From assembly GCA_013288555.1 (NCBI GenBank), contig JABDBQ010000002.1, positions 1-51,312 of the forward strand: 51,312 nucleotides of DNA. Reading direction: 5' to 3'. The position numbers and the translations under genes were made by a program. The notes beneath the pieces were generated by a model that did not search any database, was not told the origin of the DNA, and saw nothing but the letters and a program-made list of their open reading frames with translations. Source of the stretch: Bacteroidota bacterium (lineage in GTDB: Bacteria; Bacteroidota; Bacteroidia; CAILMK01). Every line of letters starts with the position of its first letter. The stretch's first letter is position 1. Below, piece after piece: positions 18,743 to 32,437 of the stretch.

Positions 18743-18815
18743 ACCACCCTCCCGAGTTCTCGGGACAGGCAGGCCTACGGCCACCCCTCCTTAAACCGAA
18801 GGAGGGGAATGGCGC
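18743..18815. repeat. Lone copy of the DUF559-flanking palindromic repeat
   Basis: It starts ACCACCCTCCCG and ends with an AAGGAGGGGAATGGCGC segment, as in the copies at 31766-31815 and 32203-32251. It carries an extra palindromic insert (CCCGAG...CTCGGGACAGGC). No nuclease gene is next to it. Confidence 0.65.
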
Positions 18816-31685: not shown

Positions 31686-31765
31686 GAATTTTTATGATTG
31701 CGAATTAAAAAATTTACTATGGTAATATACATTAAATATCGGATGAAGAAAAAAAGTTGATAGTT

Positions 31766-31815
31766 GCACCATTCCCCTCCTTTTTGAGGAGGGGTGCCCT
31801 TTAGGGCGGGGTGGT
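31766..31815 (-). repeat. Left inverted repeat of the DUF559 unit
   Basis: In reverse complement it reads ACCACCCCGCCC, then two short hairpins (GCCC/GGGC and CCCCTCCT/AGGAGGGG), then AATGG. It is the inverse of 32203-32251, with differences mostly in the hairpin loops. It contains the DUF559 stop codon. Confidence 0.85.
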
Positions 31816-32166
31816 GAAATTGGCTTTAATATCCTCTAAAACACTTTCAATATTATGATAAATCAATTTGTTTTCATATCGTAATGTCCTGATTCCAAAT
31901 TTTTTCAATACCTGATCCCGATCATCATCATGCCTGGAACCATCAATCGTAAAATGCCCTTTCCCATCTAATTCTATTGCTAATTTTTCGGAAGGACAAT
32001 AGAAATCAAGTACATAATTTTCTACACTATATTGCCTTCTGAATTTTCTGCCAACAAGCTGGCCCCCTTTAATTCTCGTCCATAAAACAGCTTCGGCAGC
32101 AGTTCCATTATTCCTTAATTGTTTTCTATTCTGTTCATGTTCCTTTCTGTTATAAAATTCTCCCAT
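31801..32166 (-). CDS. DUF559 endonuclease-like protein
   Basis: The 121-residue protein belongs to the DUF559 family, related to Vsr and restriction-type PD-(D/E)xK nucleases. Likely catalytic residues are E25 (AEAVLWTRI), D54 (YVLDFYCP), E65 and K69 (LAIELDGKGH), followed by a DDDRDQVLKKFGIRTLRYEN helix-strand. Its length is typical for stand-alone members. The last residues (TTPP, then TAA) are encoded by the left inverted repeat, and the start codon is 37 bp inside the right one, so gene and repeats form one unit. The target sequence and biological role are unknown. Confidence 0.88.
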   Translation of the reverse strand: MGEFYNRKEHEQNRKQLRNNGTAAEAVLWTRIKGGQLVGRKFRRQYSVENYVLDFYCPSEKLAIELDGKGHFTIDGSRHDDDRDQVLKKFGIRTLRYENKLIYHNIESVLEDIKANFTTPP

Positions 32167-32202
32167 AAATCACTTTTGATTTTTACGCGATGCACTACAC
32201 TA

Positions 32203-32251
32203 ACCACCCCGCCCTACGGGCACCCCTCCTTTGTAAGGAGGGGAATGGCGC
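32203..32251 (+). repeat. Right inverted repeat of the DUF559 unit
   Basis: It reads ACCACCCCGCCC onward, with hairpins CCCTA/GGGC and CCCCTCCT/AGGAGGGG, ending AATGGCGC. It faces the left copy at 31766-31815. Confidence 0.85.
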
Positions 32252-32437
32252 TTTGATCAATATTTTCGGGTATTCAATTTTTAACTTTTATTCCACACGA
32301 TGGAAAATAGAAGATTCACAACTCTCATTTTCATGCTGGCGAAGTTACACAAAATCCAATTTTCAGTAAGAGCTTGTTCTATTCCTCATATCAAAGCCTC
32401 TTTTCCGTATCTTGCACCCTTAAATTTTAATGAACTT

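Follow-up and report, generated by a model that had tools for sequence, protein, structure and literature searches.

The DUF559 nuclease gene in the 51,312-nt window, the whole stretch of Bacteroidota contig JABDBQ010000002.1 that was analyzed, is boxed by two inverted repeats of about 50 nt, and the same pairing of gene and repeats recurs throughout the class Bacteroidia and in other phyla. The unit is probably a minimal mobile element made up of a DUF559 gene and two inverted triplex-forming palindromes, with lone repeats as its nuclease-less derivatives. The features of the window that bear on this reading are as follows.

31766 to 31815, minus strand: left triplex-type repeat, likely type member, tag pointing at the gene
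31774 to 31794: main hairpin of the left repeat, CCCCTCC-n-GGAGGGG
Within the left repeat: mini-hairpin GCCC-TTTA-GGGC
Within the left repeat: tag GGGGTGGT (ACCACCCC on the C-rich strand)
31801 to 32166, minus strand: DUF559 (PF04480) nuclease, Vsr/EDxHD-like, 121 aa
32203 to 32251, plus strand: right triplex-type repeat, likely type member, inverted copy with tag ACCACCCC
Within the right repeat: mini-hairpin GCCC-TAC-GGGC
32223 to 32243: main hairpin of the right repeat, CCCCTCC-n-GGAGGGG
18743 to 18815, plus strand: dispersed lone repeat of the same family, with its hairpin at 18784 to 18807

The initial annotation, made from the letters of the window, had described inverted repeats of about 50 nt bounding the gene. 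This was confirmed, positions 31766 to 31815 and 32203 to 32251 being inverted two-hairpin copies, of which the left one reads GCACCATTCCCCTCC..GGAGGGGTGCCC..GGGCGGGGTGGT. A repeat search of the window returned inverted arms at 31751 to 31810 and 32207 to 32266 that are 73% complementary over 60 nt and inner arms at 31802 to 31815 and 32203 to 32216 that are 100% complementary over 14 nt. The inverted repeat scores 44; among control windows from related loci, 2 of 959 (~0.2%) scored 40 or more. DUF559 is the sole gene inside the unit. The C terminus of the nuclease, TTPP plus stop (ACC ACC CCG CCC TAA), is encoded by the tag of the left repeat, as had been proposed, and the right repeat does lie close upstream of the ATG, although the distance is 36 bp and not the 37 bp originally given. 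The lone copy at 18743 to 18815 is likewise real; it carries an extra hairpin, TCCCGAGTTCTCGGGA, that separates the tag from the main hairpin, and no nuclease gene adjoins it. In the source genome, a 2.84-Mb assembly that is 67% complete, the pattern CCCCTCCN{2,10}GGAGGGG occurs at 16 sites, which mostly stand alone, versus 0 for the reversed control.

The same genome encodes a second stand-alone DUF559 protein (L003), boxed by diverged copies of the window repeat family, and a third (L001) within a frame of 1137 aa, read as leucyl-tRNA synthetase (LeuRS; G000:C9:54319-57633), where the box uses a different repeat family, CCCCTCTCC..GGAGAGGGG. A fourth match (L004; G000:C29:21178-24375) covers the C-terminal half of the domain only and is unboxed. 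The protein at this locus is shorter and DUF559-like, has an N-terminal cysteine motif, and is encoded among uncharacterized genes with no flanking repeats; its role probably differs from that of boxed DUF559.

The proposal that the window gene encodes a Vsr-like nuclease was supported by profile, residues, and predicted fold. The open reading frame matches PF04480 with an E value of 9e-29 and 100 bits, against a cutoff of 20.6. E25, W29, Q45, D54, E65, D67, H71, and D80 are all present and are 99 to 100% conserved in 118 relatives; the putative active-site set E, D, E-x-D, H, D corresponds to E25, D54, E65, D67, H71, and D80. Among proteins of solved structure, the closest in sequence is 3hrl, a putative Neisseria gonorrhoeae endonuclease. 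In a Foldseek search, a model predicted from a two-row alignment (pLDDT of 73.6) had 3hrl as its top match, followed by the catalytic domain of the homing endonuclease I-Bth0305I (3r3p; E value of 3e-3, TM scores of 0.63/0.76, probability of 1.00), with E. coli Vsr a weaker match; the predicted fold is of the EDxHD type. PADLOC gave a weak partial match to DpdF only and no defense-system assignment. Among other members of the family, YcjD has been assigned to the PD-(D/E)XK superfamily near Vsr (PMC1189080), and VsrA of Caulobacter, which contains DUF559, causes DNA damage in vivo and is responsible for the SOS response in cells without a cytosine methyltransferase (PMC12907096).

The recurrence of the boxed gene was surveyed in 247 genomes of the class Bacteroidia, from which 119 DUF559 domain copies, a sample biased toward high-scoring matches, were read in fetched loci. 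The best inverted repeat within ±400 bp of each copy was scored, with 959 windows from the same loci as controls. Scores of at least 28 were reached by 65.5% of the DUF559 copies versus 1.6% of the controls, and scores of at least 32 by 49.6% versus 0.3%. C-rich hairpins were present on both sides of 79 of the 119 copies versus 2 of 434 control windows; of the remainder, 28 had such a hairpin on just one side and 12 had none. The initial annotation had tied its reading to two points, whether most DUF559 genes are boxed and whether the repeats are equally common around other genes, and the comparison (66% versus 0.5%) favors the unit on both. Its view that gene and repeats form one unit is supported, and the unit is a recurrent one.

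Fifty-eight boxes had readable hairpin polarity, and in 53 of these the hairpins were inverted (39 with tags outward and 14 with tags inward), with 5 direct. A fixed tag direction was rejected on these counts; the window box is also tags-in by eye. The pairing of "type A" with "type B" spacers that has been reported for inverted pairs in E. coli was not borne out either (10 of 24 mixed, P = 0.89). Several loci carry DUF559 copies in close pairs amid several repeats, in tandem in L064 (G060) and L033 (G062) and on opposite strands in L123 (G159). The two L064 copies are nearly identical, which suggests that this pair arose by local duplication. The G060 tandem element was considered as a clean empty-site case and rejected, as only one flank is conserved in G016/G097.

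The repeat families differ in sequence but share a common anatomy, a hairpin plus a tag that mirrors the hairpin arm, usually 3 nt apart. Knowledge of BoxC/PIT/TM repeats goes back to the 1990s. E. coli BoxC (PIT, TM) has the intrastrand-triplex design, in which a mirror tag accompanies a polypurine/polypyrimidine hairpin; the G/C-rich triplex motif has been reported in >260 genomes, and the E. coli form was found to form a triplex in vitro (Holder et al. 2015, PMC4666352). Among 228 DUF559-adjacent hairpins, a mirror tag at least 85% identical to the arm was present in 67%, versus 4% in shuffled flanks; a direct-repeat tag, used as a control, was present in 21% of the 228. The spacer between tag and arm was 3 nt in 124 cases, and in 14 cases it was 12 nt and held a second hairpin. 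The commonest spacers were CGG, AAA, CAG, and TAA, both E. coli types included. By their anatomy, as read from sequence, the repeats of the class are the BoxC/PIT/TM intrastrand-triplex motif. The repeats of the window are of the kind with a second hairpin, with a spacer of 12 to 13 nt; their tag, CCACCCC, matches the mirror CCTCCCC at 6 of 7 positions over the 7-nt arm, and the scanner gave them mirror scores of 0.75 and 0.67. They likely belong to the same repeat type, less cleanly than the class set because of the 6/7 mirror match and the long spacer.

Many DUF559 copies reside inside other genes. In frame within longer open reading frames were 57 of the 119, usually with repeat-coded peptides on both sides. 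The hosts, named by reading the host sequences rather than by profile searches, were LeuRS (24 copies, at more than one site), MetH (7), acetyl-CoA synthetase (3), methylmalonyl-CoA-mutase-like proteins (2), and HsdR (2), with single copies in IleRS, RecG, RecJ, MutS, a UvrD-type helicase, HisF, and an RluA-type enzyme. In a tree of DUF559, 46 of the 57 in-frame copies fell into one well-supported clade in which related nucleases occupy different hosts; the tree requires the fused copies to have changed host at least 26 times, versus a minimum of 21. Altogether, copies occupy some 20 different host genes as well as intergenic sites. These observations also bear on whether the repeats are mere bidirectional transcription terminators or chance palindromes near a small gene. 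They are G+C-rich hairpins adjoining gene ends, as terminators would be, but the 57 in-frame copies are translated through, a mirror tag is foreign to a terminator, boxing is >100 times the control level, and both readings are contradicted by the in-frame copies and by the empty sites described below; we consider this explanation practically negligible.

The initial annotation had called for strains with the empty site, and units were found to be present or absent at conserved sites in acetyl-CoA synthetase and LeuRS, while the window locus yielded no clean case: among the relatives compared, different genes lie upstream of the DHH-type gene. In acetyl-CoA synthetase, two genomes carry an insert of ~505 bp bounded by two repeats, and five genomes of the same genus have 4 to 6 bp instead, with both flanks aligned (79 to 87% identity). 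At a LeuRS site in one genus, 3 genomes have the element and 25 are without it, and 3 of these 25 have a lone in-frame repeat of another family; this lone triplex repeat, in LeuRS of L147, L150, and L156, encodes RPLSSSGGGGAKATEE at the same site as the element of the relatives. No target-site duplication was recognized at the acetyl-CoA synthetase or LeuRS sites. Because a single site occurs in three states (empty, lone repeat, and full element), insertion appears to fit the history of the LeuRS site best, tree counts alone being unable to separate gain from loss. Genome comparison of this kind suggests that the DUF559-repeat units are mobile. In L001 and L005 (G003:C73), from two genera of one family, an in-frame DUF559 is located at the identical point of LeuRS, the entry of the editing domain (GAEV-F | IFTTRPDTIFG).

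The unit had been likened at the outset to homing endonucleases, and this part of the proposal was not supported as worded. Close relatives occupy numerous unrelated genes, and lone repeats occur throughout the genome, so that the behavior is more like that of REP/RAYT systems or MITEs than of homing into one allele. Strict homing, in which DUF559 would cleave its own site where the allele is empty and repair would then copy the gene in, at homologous sites only and with the repeats as accessories, is in our judgment unlikely. The EDxHD homing endonuclease I-Bth0305I is the nearest characterized fold, and the LeuRS and acetyl-CoA synthetase sites are each filled in different genomes, as homing would have it. 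Against this, a single DUF559 clade is found in many unrelated genes, and dispersed nuclease-less repeats track DUF559; lone repeats of another family share the LeuRS site, so the recurrent sites may simply be loops that tolerate insertion.

Repeat load was also compared with the presence of DUF559. Repeats were counted with two patterns, CCCTCTCCN{1,10}GGAGAGGG and CCCCTCCN{1,12}GGAGGGG, and genomes were called DUF559 positive when their match was clearly stronger than 15 weak ones (best E value above about 1e-12), the latter being grouped with the negatives. At least 3 repeats were present in 73 of 109 DUF559-positive versus 14 of 138 DUF559-negative genomes (P = 3e-21), with 1942 versus 202 copies in all. 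The link persisted when labels were permuted within families (P = 2e-4), which controls partly for relatedness. Some of the 14 negative genomes that keep repeats are incomplete. A repeat pair of divergent sequence is located between bcp-like and csaA-like genes (names read from sequence) in DUF559-positive G002 (L181:1030-1115); DUF559-negative G001 (L182), of the same genus, is without it.

Repeat load also tracks the presence of Y1_Tnp (RAYT/IS200 type), with 80 of 174 versus 7 of 73 genomes, and the layout of DUF559 and repeats resembles that of REPtrons (PMC8266576); a Y1 transposase could on these grounds be the mover of the repeats and DUF559 a passenger. The effect of Y1 is small once DUF559 is accounted for (partial rho of 0.20 for Y1 given DUF559, versus 0.60 for DUF559 given Y1), four genomes with DUF559 and without Y1 carry repeats, and the window box holds no gene except DUF559, all of which make this explanation highly improbable.

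Evidence from other phyla rests on plasmid-borne DUF559 genes, among which Deinococcota, Cyanobacteriota, and Alphaproteobacteria have boxed copies. Inverted triplex-type repeats box DUF559 on plasmids of Deinococcus (L137 and L189, with L185 a weaker case) and Azospirillum (L190), and a boxed DUF559 is located between sufB and sufC on a Sphingomonas plasmid (L191). In Pseudanabaena (L186 and L194) the box has a repeat pair on each side, and in L194 the gene is in frame in a long coding sequence. One-sided repeats were found in Synechocystis (L135), Photobacterium (L187), and Neisseria (L136), and the remaining plasmid DUF559 genes examined had no convincing repeats. The N. gonorrhoeae locus (L136:2490-3184) has three tandem units, each of two different triplex-type hairpins, downstream of a DUF559 gene related to 3hrl.

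In E. coli, ycjD is unboxed, with two BoxC-like stretches on one side only, and the ycjD segment is missing in about 2,000 of 5,395 genomes. At fabI-sapF (L132 and L139 to L141), the examples read without ycjD contain a TetR gene and an RND-efflux operon instead; ycjD as a clean presence/absence pair was accordingly rejected as an allele replacement, and the tkt-ypfG repeat as an insertion was rejected as an allele exchange with REP. These two replacements would suit an explanation in which triplex repeats are fragile, recombinogenic spots and DUF559, a gene for host repair or a Vsr-like function, is traded passively by way of its flanking repeats. Genome instability has been linked to triplex-repeat sites (PMC4666352), and a role in mismatch repair is possible for Caulobacter VsrA (PMC12907096). 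Such passive exchange predicts that other genes would be boxed equally often, which the 2 of 434 boxed control windows contradict, and it accounts neither for repeat number following DUF559 nor for single-gene units within reading frames; we give it only a slim chance.

The main study of triplex repeats reported no transposase or integrase near them and left the mechanism of their spread open (PMC4666352). Because its pairing with the repeats recurs across phyla and is often in frame inside essential genes, the DUF559 nuclease is a strong candidate for what spreads BoxC-type repeats. From the comparisons above we infer how it might act on the repeats, where it would cut, and how insertion would be completed. 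The Vsr-like nuclease would recognize a repeat once it is extruded as hairpin or triplex DNA, as may occur on a strand undergoing replication, and would nick or cut it at the tag or close by. What lies between two tags, or one repeat by itself, would be released or copied, and host repair and recombination would seal it into new sites. Copies would persist where they are harmless, either in intergenic DNA or, the repeats being translatable, in frame within surface loops of enzymes.

Whether a wider generalization holds we regard as evenly balanced: that these units represent a separate, ancient class of prokaryotic mobile elements in which a bare Vsr/EDxHD nuclease, without transposase, recombinase, or intron, moves DNA with triplex-forming ends, is the source of BoxC/PIT/TM repeats in Bacteroidota, Cyanobacteriota, Deinococcota, and Pseudomonadota, and colonizes essential enzymes in frame without splicing. 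BoxC/PIT/TM repeats, present in hundreds of genomes with no known spreading agent, would gain a candidate enzyme that is small and conserved enough to be purified, making a direct test possible. A widespread domain of unknown function would be assigned a biological role, and the recurrent "LTPSPSPRERG"-like peptides and nuclease inserts in LeuRS, MetH, and other enzymes would be explained. By title and abstract, none of the papers found to mention DUF559 concerns repeats, and a targeted literature search gave no such link; subscription papers and most preprints were outside its scope, so we provisionally regard the unit as previously undescribed.

Among known systems, BoxC/PIT/TM repeats share the C-rich tag, short spacer, and hairpin and occur as dispersed singles and inverted pairs, and the spacers TAA and CGG (TTA/CCG when read from the opposite strand) also rank among the most frequent in this survey. 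They have been described as orphan repeats only (PMC4666352), whereas here they bound a nuclease gene, and the window repeat family differs further in its 12-nt spacer holding a second hairpin. Vsr and VsrA share the PD-(D/E)XK/Vsr superfamily with DUF559 (PMC12907096; for YcjD, PMC1189080) but are proposed repair enzymes with no reported link to repeats. I-Bth0305I (PDB 3r3p) is, judging from the predicted model, the closest characterized fold after the uncharacterized 3hrl and is also a nuclease-only selfish gene; it possesses additional DNA-binding regions and recognizes a single long target (PMC3943268), whereas a DUF559 unit consists of the bare domain in its repeat box, occurs at many sites, and is not confined to homologous ones in its spread. 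Rickettsia palindromic elements, likened here by description, are also palindromic and in frame within conserved protein genes (PMC10969869) but, at about 150 bp, are too short for a nuclease gene. Insertion sequences and MITEs share terminal inverted repeats, but the DUF559 unit has no transposase and no recognized target duplication (acetyl-CoA synthetase site). The closest parallel in organization is that of REP with TnpA-REP (RAYT, REPtron), in which one small gene is bordered by palindromes that are also scattered singly and as inverted pairs (PMC8266576). REPtrons pair an HUH Y1 protein with REPs that bear a GTAG tag, whereas the DUF559 unit has a Vsr/EDxHD nuclease and mirror-image tags; in the window unit both the Y1 (HUH) domain and the GTAG/CGTC tag are absent, and the tags are C-rich mirror sequences. 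Copies of the DUF559 gene also appear to be mobile themselves, often in frame, and the unit would show that the REP-RAYT problem has been solved twice, by unrelated means.
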